Below, in pieces: positions 8,902-53,811 of a stretch of 64,000 nucleotides of DNA (positions are counted from its first letter, which is position 1; each line of letters begins with the position of its first letter). The translations under genes and the position numbers were made by a program. The notes below the pieces were generated by a model. The model did no database searches. It saw nothing but the letters and a program-made list of their open reading frames with translations, and had not been told where the DNA came from. The stretch is from Flavobacteriaceae bacterium (lineage in GTDB: Bacteria; Bacteroidota; Bacteroidia; Flavobacteriales; Flavobacteriaceae): contig JAQWSC010000004.1 in assembly GCA_029243385.1 (NCBI GenBank), positions 62,001-126,000 on the forward strand, read 5' to 3'.

Positions 8902-11601
8902 ATGAAAAACAGCAAACTCACTCAAAAATTTGTATTATTATTCGCTTTTGTTACTTTATTCTCTTGTGTTGAAGATAGTGATTACAGCATTCCCGATCAG
9001 GCAACCGCTTGTGTTGAAACTGACTTAACTGCCAACGCTACCATTGCTGAGGTCAAAGCCTTGTACGACGGTTCAATTGTCCAAATAGAAGAAGATATGG
9101 TCATTGAAGGATTTGTCGTGTCCAACGACCGATCCGGAAACTTTTTCAAAACGCTTCAATTTCAAGATGCAATTGAGAATCCAACCGAAGGGTTTCAAAT
9201 CGACTTGGATGTTAGCGACTTGTACCTAATGTATCCCGTTGGAAGTCGTGTGCTTATTAGCGTTAAAGGCTTATATTTAGAAGACTACAACGGCGTTCTT
9301 AAATTGGGCGGAATTTATGAGCAAAGCAGCGGTTCTATTGCTGTTGGAAGACTGGATGCAGCCCGATGGAAAAACCATGTCTCAGGAACCTGTGATGAAA
9401 TCAAAACAATTACGCCAACGACTACTTCCATTGCAGAAATCACAGATGCAATGATCAACACGCTTATTACCGTTCAAAATACACAAGTTGACGTTTCCAA
9501 CCTTTGCCAAACATATGCAGTTGAGGGCTCCAATACCAATATCAATCTTGTTGACTGTAATGATGACGAATTATTAATGAGAAACAGTGGCTATGCCGAT
9601 TTTTACAACCAAACACTTCCTAGCGGAAGCGGAACCGTTACAGGAGTATTGGGTAAATTTGGAAGCGACTACCAATTATATATTCGTGACACTACAGACG
9701 TTACATTGAACGATACGCGCTGTGACGGAGTAGAATTTACCTGTTCAGCTCCCGAAGCAAATGCTACTATAGAAGACGTAAAAGACACTTATGTAGATAA
9801 TTTGGTGCAAATTTCAGAGAATCTGATTTTTGATGGGACTATTACTGCTAACGATTCAAGTGGAAATTTATACAAACTCGTTTACATTCAAGATGAAACA
9901 GGTGGTATTCGACTGCGTATCAATCAAACTCAATTGTATTTAAGAAATTACAAAGTAGGTCAAAAAATCACTGTTGCTGCGAAAGACCTTTACATTGACG
10001 ATTCCAGCGGTGAGTTGCACTTGGGTGGTTTGTACAATGGTAACATCGGAAACATGGAAGCAAGTGACGTTTACAAGCACGTTTTTATAGGAGATACCAA
10101 TGAGCCCATTGCCCCTGCCGAAATTAGTTTAGATGCATTGTCAGACGATTCTATAGGAATGCTTGTCAAAATCAGCGATGCGCAATTCAGTGATAGTGGA
10201 AATTTTGTAAATGACGGCGATTTCAACACCAACCGAATGCTTTCTGATTGTAGTGCCAATAAAATAATCGTTCGAACCAGTAAATATGCTACTTTTGCAG
10301 AAAAGCCACTTCCTACTGGAAACGGCCCTATTGTTGGTATTTTAGGTAAATTTAATAGTGATTATCAGCTATTATTGCGCTCCCAAAGCGATTATGCCGA
10401 AATGACCAATGCATCCTGTGATATTTATGCCAGTGCGACTGCAAAAACAATTGCCGAAATTAGAGCCATGCATTCTGGAAGCGATGTAACTATTGAAGAC
10501 AATTATGTAATCACAGTAACCGTTACTTCGGACAAGAACACTGGTAATATTTTTTCAAGAAATTTACATGCCCAAGACAGCTCTGCAGGAATCTTGCTTC
10601 GATTTACAGAAGATCACAATATTGAAATCAATCAAGAGATTAAGGTTGCCATAATGGGTACAACGCTTCAAACCTATAGCGGTCTTTTACAAATCAACAA
10701 CATCTCTTTAGGAAATATCGTTACTGAAACAGCAGGCACAGCGCCTAATCCAGTATCAGTAACCCTTGCCGAGGCACTTGCTGGAAACCACGAAAGTCAA
10801 TTGGTAACAATTAGCGGAGTTCAATTCAAATCGGGAACCACCTATTCGGGTTCCAATGCAATTACTGACTGTACGGACGAACTCACGGTGTTTGTAAATG
10901 CTGCAGCCACATTTTCTGGTGACACCTTACCTACTAAAAACGGAGCAATTACAGGAGTAATGTCAGTATTCAATTCACCGCAGTTGTATATAAGAAACAC
11001 CAACGATGTTAACTTTACTGCAGACGCTCTAAGTTGTGGTGGAGGCGGTGGTTCTGGAACAGGGGCGGTTGAAGGTCTTTATTTCTCAGAATATGCCGAA
11101 GGAAGTTCCAACAACAAATACTTGGAAATCTACAACGGATCTACTGAAACGATTGACCTCACGCAATACGCCTATCCGAGTGTATCCAATGCGCCCACAA
11201 CAGTAGGAGAGCATGAATTTTGGAATGAATTTGATGCTGGAGCCACCATTGCTCCCGGAGGATTTTATATCATAGCTCACGGTTCAGCTGATCCAACGAT
11301 TTTAGCCAAAGCGAATGAGACGCACAACTATTTGTCAAACGGTGACGACGGTTATGCCCTGGTTTATGGGTCCGAAAGTAGCTATGATATTGTTGATACC
11401 ATTGGAGATTTTAACGGAGATCCCGGTTCGGGTTGGGATGTAGCGGGTGTATCTACTGCCACCAAAGAACATACGCTTGTCAGAAAAACATCGGTAACCA
11501 AAGGAAATCCCAACTGGACAGCTTCTGCGGGAACCTCAGAAAGTGATTCTGAATGGATTGTTAAAGACCAAAACGATTGGACCAATTTGGGAGTTCGCTA
11601 A
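8902..11601 (+). CDS. Surface lipoprotein with three DUF5689-type repeats and a lamin-tail domain
   Basis: 899 residues with a lipoprotein signal (acylated Cys22 in LFSC). Three homologous blocks follow at about 25-276, 277-506 and 507-720. Each starts with an ATI-EVK/EIRAM motif, contains a GxxxKLxxIQD-like strand and ends in a cysteine-containing segment plus a GVLGKFxSDYQLxxR-like strand. They look like DUF5689, an OB-fold-like domain. After a glycine linker, residues 722-899 form a lamin-tail domain (FSEYAEGSSNNKYLEIYN). Lamin-tail and OB-like modules are known from secreted nucleases such as ExeM, but no nuclease domain is present here. It is probably the surface partner of the TonB receptor 10 bp upstream. 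Confidence 0.8.
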   Translation: MKNSKLTQKFVLLFAFVTLFSCVEDSDYSIPDQATACVETDLTANATIAEVKALYDGSIVQIEEDMVIEGFVVSNDRSGNFFKTLQFQDAIENPTEGFQIDLDVSDLYLMYPVGSRVLISVKGLYLEDYNGVLKLGGIYEQSSGSIAVGRLDAARWKNHVSGTCDEIKTITPTTTSIAEITDAMINTLITVQNTQVDVSNLCQTYAVEGSNTNINLVDCNDDELLMRNSGYADFYNQTLPSGSGTVTGVLGKFGSDYQLYIRDTTDVTLNDTRCDGVEFTCSAPEANATIEDVKDTYVDNLVQISENLIFDGTITANDSSGNLYKLVYIQDETGGIRLRINQTQLYLRNYKVGQKITVAAKDLYIDDSSGELHLGGLYNGNIGNMEASDVYKHVFIGDTNEPIAPAEISLDALSDDSIGMLVKISDAQFSDSGNFVNDGDFNTNRMLSDCSANKIIVRTSKYATFAEKPLPTGNGPIVGILGKFNSDYQLLLRSQSDYAEMTNASCDIYASATAKTIAEIRAMHSGSDVTIEDNYVITVTVTSDKNTGNIFSRNLHAQDSSAGILLRFTEDHNIEINQEIKVAIMGTTLQTYSGLLQINNISLGNIVTETAGTAPNPVSVTLAEALAGNHESQLVTISGVQFKSGTTYSGSNAITDCTDELTVFVNAAATFSGDTLPTKNGAITGVMSVFNSPQLYIRNTNDVNFTADALSCGGGGGSGTGAVEGLYFSEYAEGSSNNKYLEIYNGSTETIDLTQYAYPSVSNAPTTVGEHEFWNEFDAGATIAPGGFYIIAHGSADPTILAKANETHNYLSNGDDGYALVYGSESSYDIVDTIGDFNGDPGSGWDVAGVSTATKEHTLVRKTSVTKGNPNWTASAGTSESDSEWIVKDQNDWTNLGVR

Positions 11602-48236: not shown

Positions 48237-48689
48237 TTATTCTTTTTGTTTGGAATCCATAACGATGGTAACGGGACCGTCATTTAGCAAGCTTACTTTC
48301 ATGTCGGCACCAAACACTCCTGTTTGAACAGGATTTGCAGAAAAACCTTGAAGTTGTTCTACAAAGTAGTTGTACAAAGTGGTTGCTTGCTCATGCTTGG
48401 CTGCCTTGATATAGGAAGGGCGGTTTCCTTTTTTGGTAGCTGCATGCAACGTAAATTGACTCACTACAAGAGCCTCTCCATTAATATCTGTCATGGAGCA
48501 ATTCATAACACCCTTCGTGTCATTAAAAATTCGCAATTGTACAATTTTCTTTGCTAACCAGTCAGCGTCCTCTTTTGTATCAGCCGTTTCAACTCCGATT
48601 AAAATCATTAAACCGGATCCAATGGATGCGATTGTTTGGTAGTTTACCACTACCGAAGCTTCTGAAACACGTTGGACTACTACTCTCAT
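48237..48689 (-). CDS. dtd: D-aminoacyl-tRNA deacylase
   Basis: 150 residues, the normal DTD length. Motifs MRVVVQRVSEASV at the N-terminus, SQFTLHAATKKGNRPSY, and the cross-subunit NDGPVTIVMDS near the C-terminus. It strips D-amino acids (D-Tyr, D-Phe and others) and mischarged Gly from tRNAs. Its start overlaps the rsgA stop (ATGA). Its place in an operon for Phe and Tyr synthesis is fitting, although similar rsgA-dtd pairs also occur elsewhere. Confidence 0.96.
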   Translation of the reverse strand: MRVVVQRVSEASVVVNYQTIASIGSGLMILIGVETADTKEDADWLAKKIVQLRIFNDTKGVMNCSMTDINGEALVVSQFTLHAATKKGNRPSYIKAAKHEQATTLYNYFVEQLQGFSANPVQTGVFGADMKVSLLNDGPVTIVMDSKQKE

Positions 48690-49633
48690 TCAATCCAAAA
48701 ATCAATTCGGTAATGTTCTTCTTCTCCCGCAAGCAATGAACAATAGCTTTTATAACGCGAAAGAGCAATTTCTCCCTTATCAAGTGCTTTTTTAACAGCA
48801 CATTGGGGTTCTTCTTTGTGCAAGCAATTATGAAACTTGCACTCCGCTTTTCGTTCGAAAAATTCTGGAAAAAAATCTCCAATTTCAGGTTTTTCTATAT
48901 CTACTACTCCAAATCCTTTGATTCCGGGCGTATCAATAATCTTGGCATCAAAATCAAGATCATACATTTGAGCAAATGTTGTGGTGTGTTGACCTTGAGA
49001 ATGTTGGGTAGAAATCGAAGCTGTTTTGATGGCTAAAAAAGGGGCTATGGTATTAACCAATGTGGATTTCCCAACACCACTATGACCCGAAAACATAGAA
49101 ACTTTTCCTTTCATTTTCGACTGAACACGATCTACATTGAGCCCATTGAGCGCAGAAATTTCAATACATTCATAACCGATTTTTTCATAAATGGCTTTCA
49201 AATCACGCACTTGTGTCAGTTCGGTTTTTGAATAAACATCTTCTTTGTTAAAAAGCAATACTACTGGAACTCCATAGGCTTCGGCAGCCACCAAAAATCG
49301 ATCTATAAAAGCTGGATGTGTTGGTGGATTGTTGAGCGTAATCATCAAAAAAACACAATCAATATTGGCAGCAATAATATGTGTTTGTTTGGATAAATTA
49401 ACAGACTTACGAACGATATAATTTTTTCGATCGTAAATCTGATGAATAACTCCTTGCAGTTGATTCTCGTTGTCCTCTATTTCAAAGTCAACCCAATCAC
49501 CAACAGCGACTGGGTTTGTACTTTTAATACCTTGAATGCGAAACTTTCCTTTGATTCGACATTCGTAAAAAGAATCGTTTTCTGCCTTAACAGTGTACCA
49601 ACTTCCCGTAGATTTGTAAACAAGTCCTTTCAT
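48686..49633 (-). CDS. rsgA: Ribosome small-subunit-dependent GTPase RsgA
   Basis: 315 residues with OB-fold N-terminus (YKSTGSWYTVKA), a circularly permuted GTPase domain (NKED precedes the P-loop GHSGVGKSTLVN; DTPGIKGFG is G3) and a C-terminal zinc-binding module (CKFHNCLHKEEPQCAVKKA). It checks 30S subunit maturation. A 54-bp gap separates it from the DAHP synthase gene, where I see no convincing promoter, only a short GTTAC/GTAAC inverted repeat. Confidence 0.96.
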   Translation of the reverse strand: MKGLVYKSTGSWYTVKAENDSFYECRIKGKFRIQGIKSTNPVAVGDWVDFEIEDNENQLQGVIHQIYDRKNYIVRKSVNLSKQTHIIAANIDCVFLMITLNNPPTHPAFIDRFLVAAEAYGVPVVLLFNKEDVYSKTELTQVRDLKAIYEKIGYECIEISALNGLNVDRVQSKMKGKVSMFSGHSGVGKSTLVNTIAPFLAIKTASISTQHSQGQHTTTFAQMYDLDFDAKIIDTPGIKGFGVVDIEKPEIGDFFPEFFERKAECKFHNCLHKEEPQCAVKKALDKGEIALSRYKSYCSLLAGEEEHYRIDFWIE

Positions 49634-49687: not shown

Positions 49688-50770
49688 TTATCCGTTGATA
49701 ATACGCTCCTGATGGTTGATCGATTCTTGATGAATTGCTTTAAACATTCGAAGAATAAACTCTTCACTCAATCCTTTTTCTTGCCCTTCTAGGATCATTT
49801 TTCCTAAAATTTCATTCCATCGTTTGGATTGGAGAACAGCTACATTGTTTTGTTTTTTCAGCTCACCGATACTCAAAGCAACTTTCATACGCTTTCCAAG
49901 GGTATCAATCATTCCATGATCAATAACGTCGATTTGCGTACGAAGGGTATTGAGTTTGTTGGTAAATTCAACGGCATCGCTTGTTTCGGTACGAATTTTC
50001 AAGTCTTTCATCATTTGAATCAATACTGCGGGCGTGATTTGCTGTGCAGCATCACTCCATGCATTGTCTGGATCCCAATGTGTTTCCACCATCAATCCAT
50101 CAAAATTAAGATCCAAAGCGGTTTGACAAATCTCTTGTAAAATATCTCTACGTCCAGCAATATGGGAAGGGTCGCAAATCAAAGGAAGGTCTGGAAAACG
50201 GTTTTGGAACTCAATAGCCAATTGCCATTCAGGATTGTTTCTGTAACGGGTTTTTTCATAAGTAGAAAATCCGCGATGAATAGCTCCTAATTTTTTAATA
50301 TTAGCAGAATACAAACGTTCAATTCCGCCCAACCAAAGTGCCAAATCTGGATTAACAGGGTTTTTTACCAATACTATTTTATCGGTTCCGTTAAGAGCAT
50401 CTGCAATTTCTTGAACAATAAATGGACTTACCGTAGATCGGGCTCCAATCCAAAGAATATCAATGTCGTGTTCCAAAGCCAATTTAACATGAGCTGCGTT
50501 GGCAACCTCAGTAGCAATCAACATTCCTGTTTCTTTTTTTACACGCTGAAGCCATTTCAATCCGATAGCACCTACGCCTTCAAACATACCAGGGCGTGTT
50601 CGAGGTTTCCATATTCCCGCTCTGAATACCGTTGCATCTGTGTCTTTTAGCTCGTGAGCAATTTTAAGAACCTGATCTTCTGTTTCTGCGCTACACGGTC
50701 CTGCGATTACGAGAGGATGACTCAATCCAAAGTCATTTAGCCATGTTCTCATGTCTTTATTGTTTTCCAT
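49688..50770 (-). CDS. Bifunctional DAHP synthase / chorismate mutase
   Basis: 360 residues in two parts. The first 260 or so form a type I-beta (KDOPS-like) DAHP synthase: VIAGPCSAETEDQ, FRAGIWKPRTRPG, WIGARSTVSPF, CDPSHIAGRRD. The last 95 are an AroQ-type chorismate mutase helix bundle (LNTLRTQIDVIDHGMIDTLGKRMKVA). It thus joins the first step of the shikimate pathway to the branch step to prephenate. The mutase domain may serve as an allosteric sensor, as known in related fusions. It follows tyrA by 7 bp. Confidence 0.93.
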   Translation of the reverse strand: MENNKDMRTWLNDFGLSHPLVIAGPCSAETEDQVLKIAHELKDTDATVFRAGIWKPRTRPGMFEGVGAIGLKWLQRVKKETGMLIATEVANAAHVKLALEHDIDILWIGARSTVSPFIVQEIADALNGTDKIVLVKNPVNPDLALWLGGIERLYSANIKKLGAIHRGFSTYEKTRYRNNPEWQLAIEFQNRFPDLPLICDPSHIAGRRDILQEICQTALDLNFDGLMVETHWDPDNAWSDAAQQITPAVLIQMMKDLKIRTETSDAVEFTNKLNTLRTQIDVIDHGMIDTLGKRMKVALSIGELKKQNNVAVLQSKRWNEILGKMILEGQEKGLSEEFILRMFKAIHQESINHQERIING

Positions 50771-50777
50771 AATTTAT

Positions 50778-51650
50778 CTATTTATTATTTTTTGATGTTA
50801 TTCCGTTTAAAATATTTTTTATGTGATTGGTGTTTGCCATACTTTCATACACTTTCTGAAAATCGTCATTCTCTACCCATGTTTTGAAAGCTTCTAAGTT
50901 GGCTATGTATTCTTTTAGCGATTCTACTACATTGGCTTTGTTTTCCTCAAAAATAGGCGTCCACATTGCCGGCGAACTTTTAGCGAGTCGAACGGTTGAC
51001 TCGAATCCACTTCCTGCCATATCAAAAATGTTTCGTTCATCTTTTTCTTTTTCAATGACTGTTTTTCCCAGCATAAAAGAGCTAATGTGTGACAAATGGG
51101 ATACGTAAGCGATGTGACGATCGTGTTCAATGGGATCCATATAGCTCAAACGCATTCCGAGTTTGGTAAATAATAAAACTGCTTTTTCGAGCAATTTTGA
51201 ATCTGTTTTGTGCGACTCGCACAAAATATTCGTTTTATGTTCAAACAAATTTTCCACAGCCGCTTTTGGTCCAGAAAACTCGGTTCCTGCAATCGGATGA
51301 GCTGCCAAAAAATGATTCCGATGTTTGTGATTGGCAATTTCTTGGCACAAAGATGCTTTGGTAGAACCTACGTCAAAAACAAGGGTGTTTTTTCCAATAT
51401 TGTCCAATACACTCGATAGTATCTTTTTGCAAGCTCCAACGGGAATTGCTATGACAACCATATCGTTATCTGCTAATTGATCCAAAGTGGTTTCTTCATC
51501 GATGATACCCAGTTCAATGGCTTCAGATATATGACCCGCATTTTGGTCGATCCCCAAACGCTTGGTGTTTGGAAACAGTCGCTTCATGTCCAATGCCATT
51601 GAGCCTCCTATCAATCCTATACCGATAAAAGTTATTTTTAAGGGTTCCAT
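50778..51650 (-). CDS. tyrA: Prephenate dehydrogenase
   Basis: 290 residues. The N-terminal NAD-binding motif is IGIGLIGGSMALDM, then FDVGSTKASLC and AAHPIAGTEFSGP with the catalytic His in HPIAG. It oxidatively decarboxylates prephenate to 4-hydroxyphenylpyruvate for tyrosine. There is no mutase or ACT domain fused. It overlaps the aminotransferase gene upstream by 13 bp and belongs to the Phe/Tyr operon. Confidence 0.94.
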   Translation of the reverse strand: MEPLKITFIGIGLIGGSMALDMKRLFPNTKRLGIDQNAGHISEAIELGIIDEETTLDQLADNDMVVIAIPVGACKKILSSVLDNIGKNTLVFDVGSTKASLCQEIANHKHRNHFLAAHPIAGTEFSGPKAAVENLFEHKTNILCESHKTDSKLLEKAVLLFTKLGMRLSYMDPIEHDRHIAYVSHLSHISSFMLGKTVIEKEKDERNIFDMAGSGFESTVRLAKSSPAMWTPIFEENKANVVESLKEYIANLEAFKTWVENDDFQKVYESMANTNHIKNILNGITSKNNK

Positions 51651-52792
51651 CTAATCAATGCTTCTTTAATTAATTCTTCTGACACACATAGAGAGAATCG
51701 AATGTATCCTTCTCCTTGAGAACCAAAGATAGTTCCTGGGGTAATGAATACGTGTTTGTTATACAAAATCTCATCAATAAATTCTTCTGAGCTTGGCGCT
51801 CCTTTGGGCAATTTTGCCCAAACAAACATTCCTGAAGCCGAACGGTCATATTGACATCCCAATACATCGGCCAGTTTCCAAACCCATTCTCTTCGCTTAC
51901 GATACAAATCGTTCATTGAATCATACCATGTTTCTGCGCTACGAAGTGCTGCGATAGCTCCCTTTTGTATCCCATAAAACATTCCCGAATCCATGTTGCT
52001 TTTGACTTTCAGTACGTTCTGAATAAGAGCTGCAGGCCCTACAAGCATTCCAACACGCCATCCTGCCATATTGAAAGTTTTGCTCAACGAGTTCAGCTCC
52101 ATAACTGGATCGTCATTTTGGGCGTGAGTTAATAAACTCATGGGAGCGTCGTTTAAAATAAAACTGTAAGGGTTATCATTTACAATGAGGATATCGTGTT
52201 TTTTAGCGAAAGAAATCAAATCAGAGAATAAGGCAACTGTTGCCGATGCGCCTGTCGGCATGTGTGGGTAATTAATCCACATCAGTTTGACTTTAGAAAG
52301 ATCTTGCATTTCCAGTTTTTTCAAATCTGGCAACCAGTTTTCATTGGCTGACAGGTCATAAAACAAAGGTTCTGCTCCAACCAATCGAGTAACCGAAGTG
52401 TATGTTGGGTATCCTGGATTGGGAATCAATGCTTGATCGCCCTCATTCAGAAAAGCCATAGAAATATGCATAATTCCTTCTTTGGAACCCATTAACGGAA
52501 GAATCTGATTGTTATGATTGACTGCTACCTTGTATTTGTCTTTGTAAAAATTAGCAATTGCCATACGAAAGTCAGGTAGCCCTTGATAGCTTTGATATTT
52601 GTGAGCAGTTGCCATAGTCAAACTGCTTTTTAGAGCTTCAACCACTTGAGTTGGAGGCTCCGTATCTGGGCTTCCAATTCCCATATTAATAATAGGATTT
52701 CCCTTTGCCGCAAGCGTTGCCACTTCTCTTAACTTTTTGGAGAAATAATATTCTTCAACCGTATGCAGTCTATTGGCTATTTCAATACTCAT
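51638..52792 (-). CDS. PLP-dependent aminotransferase (class I/II), probably aromatic
   Basis: 384 residues, fold type I. The PLP lysine is in NSLSKTFNMAGWRVG; NPGYPTYTS, WINYPHMPTG and the C-terminal RFSLCV Arg for the substrate carboxylate are present. Its location between pheA and tyrA indicates it transaminates phenylpyruvate and 4-hydroxyphenylpyruvate to Phe and Tyr. Family assignment is strong; substrate is by context. It overlaps pheA by four bases (ATGA). Confidence 0.9.
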   Translation of the reverse strand: MSIEIANRLHTVEEYYFSKKLREVATLAAKGNPIINMGIGSPDTEPPTQVVEALKSSLTMATAHKYQSYQGLPDFRMAIANFYKDKYKVAVNHNNQILPLMGSKEGIMHISMAFLNEGDQALIPNPGYPTYTSVTRLVGAEPLFYDLSANENWLPDLKKLEMQDLSKVKLMWINYPHMPTGASATVALFSDLISFAKKHDILIVNDNPYSFILNDAPMSLLTHAQNDDPVMELNSLSKTFNMAGWRVGMLVGPAALIQNVLKVKSNMDSGMFYGIQKGAIAALRSAETWYDSMNDLYRKRREWVWKLADVLGCQYDRSASGMFVWAKLPKGAPSSEEFIDEILYNKHVFITPGTIFGSQGEGYIRFSLCVSEELIKEALIRWNP

Positions 52793-53610
52793 TGTTTCTC
52801 GTTTTTATAAGCGCCATGAATCTTGAACGATTCGGTCATGATTACTAAAACACTTTTTGCTTTTTCATAATGTAGCAGGTCATCAAAAGTTACATCGACA
52901 AAAAAGGCATATTTCCAGGGGGATTTTATAATCGGAAGCGATTGAATTTTCGTCAAGTTAATTGAGCAATCACTCAATACGTTCAAAATAGCTGCTAAAC
53001 TTCCTCGCTTGTGATCCAAAACAAACTTAAAAGAGGCTTTGTTAATTCCAGAAATATCATCAACTGGCTGTGCTTTAAGAATCACAAAACGGGTGGCATT
53101 ATTTTCTATGGATTGAATGTTTTTTGCCAAAATTTCCAATCCGTACAATTGGGCTGCCGATTGGCTAGCAATAGCTGCAACTCCTTCCAGTTTTTGCGTA
53201 CTGATTTTTTGAGCTACCTCTGCTGTATCTTTATCTTCCAGCAAGCGAATGTGTGGGTATTGATCAAAAAAATCTTTACACTGCAACAACGCCATCGGAT
53301 GAGAGGCCACCTCCTTTATGTCGGAAATAGCAGTTCCAGGAAGTGCCATCAGCTGATGATGAATGTTTAAATAGTGTTCGCCAACAATTTGCAAATTGTA
53401 ATCATCAATCAAGGCATAGTTAGGAATAATGGATCCCGCTATGGAATTCTCAAGTGCCATGACAGCATAGTCGCTTTTTCCACTATGCAAACTTTTTGCA
53501 AGTGAATCAAACGTCAAGCACTCTTCCCACAACTGATCGTCTCCAAAATACTCACAAGCAACTTGGTGATGATAAGAGCCTTTAATTCCTTGTATGGCTA
53601 TGGTCTTCAT
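52789..53610 (-). CDS. pheA: Prephenate dehydratase with ACT domain
   Basis: 273 residues. The PDT catalytic domain covers about 1-180 (IQGIKGSYHHQVAC, ALENSIAGSI, and NNATRFVIL with the catalytic Thr). The ACT regulatory domain follows (KRGSLAAILNVLSDCSINLTKIQSLP). The usual ACT motifs GAL and ESRP are GSL and QSLP here, so Phe binding may differ. No chorismate mutase is fused; that activity is encoded downstream. It is the first structural gene behind a Phe leader peptide and terminator at 53625-53764. Confidence 0.95.
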   Translation of the reverse strand: MKTIAIQGIKGSYHHQVACEYFGDDQLWEECLTFDSLAKSLHSGKSDYAVMALENSIAGSIIPNYALIDDYNLQIVGEHYLNIHHQLMALPGTAISDIKEVASHPMALLQCKDFFDQYPHIRLLEDKDTAEVAQKISTQKLEGVAAIASQSAAQLYGLEILAKNIQSIENNATRFVILKAQPVDDISGINKASFKFVLDHKRGSLAAILNVLSDCSINLTKIQSLPIIKSPWKYAFFVDVTFDDLLHYEKAKSVLVIMTESFKIHGAYKNEKQ

Positions 53611-53624
53611 AAAATTGTTTTAAC

Positions 53625-53654
53625 AAAAAAAAGCCCTGATGTTTATCAGGACTT
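53625..53654 (-). terminator. Regulated intrinsic terminator of the phe attenuator
   Basis: Minus strand AAGTCCTGAT (53654-53645), loop AAAC, ATCAGGGCTT (53640-53631): 10 bp with one G-U pair, followed by six T. It sits 14 bp before the pheA ATG. Its 5' arm can alternatively pair with CAGGGCTTT at 53703-53695, inside the leader-peptide frame. Confidence 0.92.
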
Positions 53655-53683
53655 TACTTTGTATGTTTTTGATTGTTTGTCAA

Positions 53684-53764
53684 CTACACTAACGAAAGCC
53701 CTGCTTTTTTTCCATAAAAGAAAAAAAAGAAGAAAAGGCTTTTGAAATAAGTTGATTGCAACAT
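53684..53764 (-). CDS. Phenylalanine leader peptide (attenuator)
   Basis: 26 codons from ATG at 53764 to TAG at 53686-53684. The sequence starts MLQSTYFKSL, continues with six consecutive Phe codons (11-16) and then Tyr17; seven Phe and two Tyr in total. Region 1 (AAAAGCC, 53743-53737) lies just before the Phe run and can pair with region 2 (GGGCTTT, 53701-53695) near the end of the frame; region 2 can alternatively pair with region 3, the terminator 5' arm. Ribosome stalling at the Phe codons would free region 2 to form the antiterminator. It controls pheA and probably the whole downstream operon. Confidence 0.92.
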   Translation of the reverse strand: MLQSTYFKSLFFFFFFYGKKAGLSLV

Positions 53765-53781: not shown

Positions 53782-53811
53782 CTAAAGTACTACTCCCAAG
53801 CGAAATAGCAA
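53782..53811 (-). promoter_or_regulatory. Promoter of the phe leader and operon
   Basis: Minus strand TTG (53811-53809, within a T-run), 19-bp spacer, TACTTTAG (53789-53782), one mismatch to TAnnTTTG. Transcription would begin only about ten bases before the leader-peptide ATG. Confidence 0.65.

Follow-up and report, generated by a model that had tools for sequence, protein, structure and literature searches.

The pheA locus and its leader region

The sequence considered here, the window, is the whole of a 64,000-nucleotide stretch of Flavobacteriaceae DNA (assembly GCA_029243385.1, contig JAQWSC010000004.1, positions 62,001 to 126,000), and positions are given relative to its first nucleotide. 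Its minus strand carries a close-packed series of genes, all in the same direction, i.e., pheA, an aminotransferase gene, tyrA, a DAHP synthase-chorismate mutase gene, rsgA, and the gene for D-Tyr-tRNA deacylase, dtd (Table 1). The latter two (48237-49633, minus strand) lie after the aromatic operon, as also is seen at L239, L240, L227 (another family), L229, and L230, such that dtd, a D-Tyr-tRNA proofreading gene, is found close to an aromatic amino-acid operon.

Ahead of pheA is a short leader frame encoding seven Phe, six of them consecutive, versus two Tyr (codons 6 and 17). Between its stop codon and pheA are 73 nt, and within these 73 nt is a hairpin followed by a U-tract. Region 4 proper spans 53640-53630, with the T-tract continuing to 53625, the terminator loop between regions 3 and 4 is AAAC, and 14 bp separate the last T of the tract from the pheA ATG (53610). 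A first-pass annotation of this DNA had described the 26-codon frame with Phe at codons 11-16 and Tyr flanking, the 3:4 terminator with its T-tract 14 bp ahead of pheA, and a 9-bp alternative pairing of regions 2 and 3. The frame is right in detail, the terminator coordinates agree, and the alternative pairing indeed is found (53703-53695 with 53655-53645).

Table 1. Features of the pheA leader and of the operon behind it, in window positions
Feature	Position	Strand	Basis or remark
Candidate Bacteroidota-type promoter: TTG (53811-53809), 19 nt, TACTTTAG (53789-53782)	53782..53811	(-)	Sequence; weak statistics
Leader peptide ORF, ATG...TAG, 26 codons, translation MLQSTYFKSLFFFFFFYGKKAGLSLV	53684..53764	(-)	No Shine-Dalgarno-like stretch upstream; A at -3 and -6
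Phe codons 11-16 (six)	53717..53734	(-)	Tyr17 next (53716-53714); Tyr6 ahead of the run
Region 1	53735..53742	(-)	Pairs with 53702-53695 (predicted fold)
Region 2, CAGGGCTTT	53695..53703	(-)	Antiterminator with region 3, 9 bp
Region 3, AAAGTCCTGAT	53645..53655	(-)	Partner-swap test
Region 4, ATCAGGGCTTT, and T-tract	53625..53640	(-)	Intrinsic terminator with region 3, 11 bp; covariation, 76 leaders
pheA, prephenate dehydratase	52789..53610	(-)	Pfam; ACT domain match below Pfam cut-off
Class I/II aminotransferase	51638..52792	(-)	Pfam
tyrA, prephenate dehydrogenase	50778..51650	(-)	Pfam
DAHP synthase fused to chorismate mutase	49688..50770	(-)	Pfam

Promoter-like elements had been noted as well. 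The candidate in the window, TTG-N19-TACTTTAG, has one mismatch relative to TAnnTTTG. Allowing no more than one mismatch, 121 of 124 real stretches ahead of relatives' leaders have such a box versus 78 of 124 shuffled ones, and for exact boxes the counts are 16 versus 4. A candidate box thus is present as had been claimed, but the enrichment is modest, and a promoter at 53811-53782 therefore is only plausible. Among those 124 leaders with enough upstream sequence, just one has a Shine-Dalgarno-like stretch. In 73% the base at -3 is A, and in 60% that at -6 is, both being positions found to favor initiation in Flavobacterium johnsoniae (PMC6847099).

Conservation of the leader frame

Given dinucleotide shuffling of the 250 nt preceding pheA, an ATG-to-stop frame containing six consecutive Phe codons arose in 2 of 5000 shuffles. 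A search for relatives covered 99 genomes, including the window's own, and found a pheA match in 69. ATG frames with at least seven of nine codons aromatic are present in 53 of these 69 real regions versus 0.14% of 2760 shuffles and none of the 69 reverse strands, and with the requirement relaxed to at least five of nine the equivalent numbers are 58 of 69, about 5.7%, and 2 of 69. On the basis of these shuffle and reverse-strand controls, a chance frame in T-rich DNA was rejected.

Inclusion of 80 additional loci from named records (Kordia, Winogradskyella, Algibacter, Maribacter, Flavobacterium, and others) results in 149 loci or, less 8 copies that are identical over the last 250 nt, 141 distinct regions. 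An aromatic-rich leader frame (at least five of nine codons) is found in 127 of these 141 pheA-upstream regions, the window included, and a terminator passes the script's filter in 126 of the 127, with that of the remaining one (L062) visible by eye. The script found no leader in 14 of the 141 (L007, L110, L017, L037, L043, L054, L057, L060, L066-L069, L078, and L097). Two of these, L007 and L110, are cut by contig ends, and L066-L069 are from four genomes of family f5, the PheA of which is distant. Within Kordia the leader is absent from two of six distinct regions, i.e., L078 (Kordia algicida) and L097 (Kordia aestuariivivens), and present in L071, L077, L079, and L091.

An alignment of pheA-upstream regions from related genomes had been suggested along with the first-pass annotation, with a Phe run not shared by near relatives to count against an attenuator. 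What is found is that the sole same-genus relative identified (L002) has kept all six consecutive Phe codons along with the two for Tyr, and that an aromatic run is present at this same position in most of the regions examined from the family, as well as outside of it.

Alternative pairings in the leader RNA

The terminator stem was assessed using an alignment (A1) of 76 diverse leaders, over which all 7 counted pairs have changed on both sides somewhere. Pairing is seen in 95.9% of cells, and all five measures exceed those of 500 shuffles and of slid controls; the terminators were picked by a script that seeks pairing, which inflates the percentage paired while two-sided changes are less affected. 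Because region 2 sits in two registers on this alignment, pair counts for 2:3 were replaced by a partner-swap test, in which the search for region 2 was confined to the 30 nt that follow the aromatic core, and the region 2 so found was scored against the region 3 either of its own or of another leader. L065 was left out of the pairing tests, as in its case the script had combined the first of two leaders with the second of two terminators.

For 125 leaders, complementarity to the own region 3 averages 17.3, versus 13.8 (sd 0.18) upon swapping and 10.4 upon shuffling of the sequence. The subset of 37 leaders possessing an uncommon region 3 gives 17.1 versus 12.9 (sd 0.37; maximum of 200 draws, 13.9). 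A few leaders do pair 2:3 poorly, with L042 scoring 10. As own partners outscore swapped ones, and as the terminator pairs covary, regions 2, 3, and 4 have, as judged by these comparisons, changed together, that is, evolved in step across lineages. The two pairings, 2:3 and 3:4, are mutually exclusive, and the terminator with its U-tract stands ahead of the first gene, just as is the case with an attenuator.

Folding of the 171-nt leader RNA yields -46.2 kcal/mol (z -5.73), with none of 200 shuffles equally good. Within this minimum-energy fold is the 1:2 hairpin, which contains also an inner 10-bp stem consisting of most of the Phe run, as a U-run (53729-53720), paired with an A-run (53713-53704). 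The 1:2 segment of the window comes to -16.7 kcal/mol (z -4.25 versus codon shuffles). Across the family the mean z for this hairpin is -1.62, with values below -2 in 56 of 161 leaders. The claim that region 1, immediately before the Phe run, pairs with region 2 hence is clear in the window but weak in the family.

A further question is what an untranslated leader would do. Folded to the end of region 3, such a leader is predicted to form 2:3 (8.87 bp in the window), with at least 4 bp of 2:3 predicted for 127 of 161 leaders, although folding at equilibrium does not represent an RNA that is still being made, which limits how this fold can be read. With 2:3 forming in the modelled untranslated leader, a default-off state in which 1:2 acts as protector finds no clear support.

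Ribosome placement relative to region 2

A ribosome was modelled as covering 12 nt from the first base of its A-site codon. At least 4 bp of 2:3 with the ribosome in the aromatic core, and less than 2 with the ribosome at the stop codon, is predicted for 143 of 161 leaders. The window lies outside of these 143, with 2:3 at 8.95 given stalling and 2.70 at the stop, where region 2 itself is covered. By codon, the window's 2:3 score stays at approximately 8.95 through Tyr17 and then declines to 6.95 at Gly18, 2.44 at Lys19, and 0.65 at Lys20. Measured from the last aromatic codon, the final codon to spare region 2 lies 0, 1, or 2 codons further on for 147 of 161 leaders, and for 115 the distance is exactly 1. 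Use instead of a margin of 9 or 15 nt moves this peak by one codon while leaving its sharpness unchanged.

As modelled, then, ribosomes stalled on the regulatory codons should spare region 2, while those at the stop should cover it, as attenuation calls for. This geometry would seem to be the strongest reason for favoring ribosome-mediated attenuation over a passive terminator. The earlier proposal that a ribosome reaching the stop masks region 2 agrees with the model, in which ribosomes beyond codon 18 cover that region. The companion proposal, of stalling that masks region 1 and thereby allows the antiterminator, fares less well. The antiterminator is indeed predicted to form upon stalling, but masking of region 1 is not clearly decisive, with 2:3 forming also when region 1 is free.

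What the leaders may read

Leader peptides were compared as a set of 165 distinct sequences from 180 leaders, using one leader per region and dropping repeated peptides. Not part of this set are a second, Tyr-free leader of G082 and five leaders from the last set of regions considered below, the latter being outside of the 161 as well. The aromatic cores total 733 Phe, 397 Tyr, and 69 Trp codons. Trp, either in the core or in the six codons ahead of it, is found in 98 of the 165, and the six-Phe run is unusual, occurring in four including that of the window. Third bases vary synonymously (TTT 494, TTC 239, TAT 276, TAC 121). Among neighbors of Phe codons at the second position, the core holds only 13 TCY-coded Ser and 4 Cys versus its 397 Tyr, and given this rarity of Ser and Cys the Tyr codons look to be maintained rather than products of drift. 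A phenylalanine attenuator had been proposed, and while the leader's richness in Phe is confirmed, Phe alone is too narrow a description for the family, with both Phe and Tyr present in 164 of the 165 peptides.

The frame thus is rich in codons for what the operon makes. Of 20 operon stretches, 13 have pheA, the aminotransferase gene, tyrA, and the DAHP synthase-chorismate mutase gene; another lacks only the aminotransferase gene, in G082 tyrA is the one gene missing, four consist of just pheA and DAHP synthase, and G024 has pheA alone. In total, 19 of the 20 stretches hence have DAHP synthase and 14 have tyrA. In G024, a single case, pheA is away from the other operon genes and has no leader.

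A strict link between Tyr codons and tyrA is not supported, the result being mixed: G082 fits such a link, but G013, G040, and G233, for which there is no tyrA match, speak against it by having kept their Tyr codons. The shared DAHP synthase, found in nearly every operon, fits better as an explanation for Tyr codons. G082 itself (L065/L225, G082:C25, 18770-19035) possesses tandem Phe-run leaders without Tyr, each with its own terminator. Its pheA encodes 185 residues, which is too short for an ACT domain, and no tyrA match is found in this 83%-complete genome. Perhaps the tandem leaders provide sharper control where allosteric feedback has been lost.

It could be argued that, in the lineage of the window, the same mechanism reads Phe only, with the two Tyr codons incidental. 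The window's excess of Phe, with seven such codons (six of them consecutive) to only two for Tyr, is consistent with this, as are the Tyr-free Phe-run leaders of G082, lacking as it does a tyrA match. Nevertheless, a stall at Tyr17 is predicted still to spare region 2, which becomes covered only over the following codons (8.95 at 17, 6.95 at 18, 2.44 at 19), both Tyr codons are retained in L002, and in family cores Tyr far outnumbers TCY-coded Ser and Cys. A Phe-only reading of this leader consequently strikes us as rather unlikely, if still the best placed of the alternatives.

Probable mechanism and its alternatives

The anatomy of the region, its conservation, its pairings, and the ribosome geometry all support the reading offered by the first-pass annotation, that is, of ribosome-mediated attenuation. 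We consider that the element controls the pheA-aminotransferase-tyrA-DAHP synthase operon by ribosome-mediated attenuation of transcription, and put the probability of this at roughly nine in ten. Frame, pairings, geometry, and conservation are features of the sequence itself; from them we infer that the frame is translated, that ribosomes stall on it, that transcription terminates in vivo, and that there is a response to amino acids.

The process may be envisaged as follows. RNA polymerase would transcribe the leader with a ribosome following behind on the 26-codon frame. Were charged Phe-tRNA (or Tyr-tRNA) scarce, then the ribosome would stall within the aromatic run, leaving region 2 uncovered. 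Region 2, being free, would then take up region 3 as the latter emerges, no 3:4 terminator would form, and the operon would be read. With ample supply, by contrast, the ribosome would reach the UAG and cover region 2, such that 3:4 would pair before the U-tract. Transcription would then end 14 bp before pheA.

Alternatively, the leader might mainly control translation of pheA, via coupling or reinitiation, instead of termination. Reinitiation following leader genes has been proposed for many phyla, including for Bacteroidetes at spacings of 11-14 bp (PMC4833913). Here, however, 73 nt with an intervening U-tract hairpin lie between leader stop and pheA, and the terminator stem covaries, making control of this kind quite improbable. 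Least probable of all, indeed barely credible, is a plain intergenic terminator of an upstream transcript that is accompanied by an accidental frame in U-rich DNA, for although the region is very T-rich, and a covariance model of the element matches also sites that lack an aromatic leader, mostly gene-end terminators, the shuffle and reverse-strand controls, the conservation, the synonymous third-base variation, and the fixed spacing all argue against it.

Attenuation being the favored reading, the element can be viewed more broadly as a widespread, multivalent aromatic attenuator. A single peptide would sum up how fully tRNA-Phe and tRNA-Tyr are charged, with tRNA-Trp included in about 60% of the forms found, its start would be Shine-Dalgarno-less, and it would set the expression of an operon joining pheA with DAHP synthase-chorismate mutase, usually also with tyrA, with the same pheA type carrying it in a few genomes outside the class. 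We consider this broader view somewhat better than an even bet. Textbook leaders read one aromatic amino acid. If working as inferred, then here a single element senses both Phe and Tyr, often Trp too, on behalf of a shared aromatic operon and does so in many Bacteroidota. A multivalent switch of this kind, without Shine-Dalgarno sequences, would need the ribosome to be close behind RNA polymerase in these bacteria. As the geometry requires a ribosome that paces the polymerase, the leader offers a test case for transcription-translation coupling without Shine-Dalgarno sequences.

Spread through the phylum

A sample of the phylum consisted of 296 genomes, 258 with pheA, from which 25 further same-family loci along with 40 chosen regions, mostly the next-scoring ones, were examined. 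Using the same frame rule but over 400 nt, a leader is found at all 25 of the same-family loci and in 28 of the 40 chosen regions, or in 9 of 25 and 26 of 40 given the stricter rule of at least seven of nine aromatic codons. The 28 include families f17, f18, f19, f22, f23, and f25 of the window's class, which we take to be Bacteroidia, plus one genome (G111) of another class. No leader was found in 12 of the 40, i.e., in four f22 genomes, one of f18, and seven of other classes. At L205 and L209 the script missed a terminator that is visible by eye.

Finally, 20 more regions were examined, of which six had been passed over earlier and 14 ranked lower. Of these, 18 could be judged, and 5 have both leader and terminator. 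These are G203, of the same family, and G229, G163, G375, and G251, which are outside the class. Among the same 18, no leader was found in G367 nor in 12 lower-scoring regions. Outside the class, Phe/Tyr leaders with terminators hence are seen at L210, L271, L272, L273, and L275 (G111, G229, G163, G375, and G251, respectively), all with a PheA that is close to the window's, whereas no leader precedes any of the examined pheA genes from other classes that score lower.

In families f30, f33, and f48, the PheA of the lone leader-bearing genome matches that of the window with E values of 1e-63 to 1e-70, versus 1e-36 or weaker for the family mates listed. As the PheA of leader-bearers is so much closer to the window's than is that of family mates, the switch may, outside the class, have moved together with this type of pheA. 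The element thus is widespread though not universal, as based on an examined subset of the lower-scoring pheA matches.

Other leaders in the same genome and covariance-model matches

Other amino-acid genes of the window's own genome are preceded by leader-like sequences. Upstream of hisG (L245, G000:C8, hisG match at 98819-99283) the frame MTKTNNHIHHSSSFAQAR, containing HIHH, is followed by a terminator and is a probable His attenuator. Upstream of trpE (L247, G000:C11, trpE match at 10466-11218) is a Trp-Trp frame, MKNNNTHIGWWKLRNALSQ, with terminator, this region scoring 51.2 bits for Rfam Bacteroid-trp (cut-off 49). The hisG and trpE leaders count in favor of attenuation at pheA as well. 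Upstream of ilvD (L250, G000:C2) is a short frame, MKRKIHIVISIVGY, with a hairpin and T-tract, which is a possible branched-chain leader but a weaker one than those of hisG and trpE.

The covariance model gave 44 matches in 38 of 148 genomes of the order, 31 of them at located pheA. Aromatic leaders before other genes were considered as well and rejected: the 12 non-pheA matches (G396 left out) have no aromatic-run frame and mostly are plain terminators after genes. The model is insensitive, having missed the leader-bearing G067 and G080. In the window's own genome it gave 16 weaker matches (E 0.08 to 8.4), and in the five of these that were inspected (L151, L152, L153, L155, and L157) no leader was found.

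Comparison with known systems

Among Rfam families the best match to the window region is RF01859, Phe_leader, which we take to be a model of the enterobacterial pheL leader. The two are alike in possessing a Phe leader, alternative pairing, and a terminator. Nonetheless, the match is sub-threshold, at 28.4 bits versus a gathering threshold of 55 and with numerous pairs of the upstream stem disrupted (the leader of one relative, L012, scores 19.8 bits), and relatives' leaders differ further by mixing in Tyr and often Trp and in being without Shine-Dalgarno-like stretches. Membership in Phe_leader accordingly was rejected, there being no match at the gathering threshold. The leader peptides of the window and L012 have no Pfam match and, in NCBIfam, have only a weak, chance match to YidC (13.3 versus 891 bits), though profiles serve such short peptides poorly. 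As a candidate for a new family in Rfam, the leader is a clean one.

Closer at hand is a 2021 study of F. psychrophilum, reporting a structured 5' element before pheA that is conserved in other genera and has no Rfam hit, as well as strong clues for leader-peptide attenuation at amino-acid operons (PMC9723704). This is the same gene in the same bacterial family as the window leader, and with that element and that proposal in hand an attenuator at pheA was so far foreseeable. The section of that study dealing with the element is without peptide sequence, codon content, or pairing scheme, which its supplements may give (PMC9723704). Bacteroid-trp (RF01692) was listed in 2010 (PMC2864571) and has been noted ahead of the F. 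psychrophilum trp operon (PMC6414381). Like the window leader it is an amino-acid-operon leader of Bacteroidetes, with one found before trpE of the window's own genome, but it differs in serving the trp operon, in using Trp codons, and in being a separate RNA family. A 2020 transcriptome map of Bacteroides thetaiotaomicron describes long 5' UTRs along with short frames that are reminiscent of leader peptides (PMC7366714). The first-pass annotation regarded attenuation of this type as best known from Proteobacteria, and while an attenuator in Bacteroidota is supported here, such attenuation had been reported for the phylum already (PMC2864571, PMC6414381, PMC9723704).

Searches of full-text literature, mostly from outside of the subscription journals, turned up no account of a Bacteroidota leader in which Phe, Tyr, and Trp are mixed. 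What may be new, then, is the widespread, multi-aromatic form of the leader, its Shine-Dalgarno-less start, and its lack of a matching Rfam family. Multivalence in itself has precedent, since the leaders of the enterobacterial ilvGMEDA and thr operons carry, within one peptide, codons for several operon-linked amino acids. In those systems, however, the amino acids are branched-chain or Thr and Ile, whereas with the pheA leader they are aromatic.
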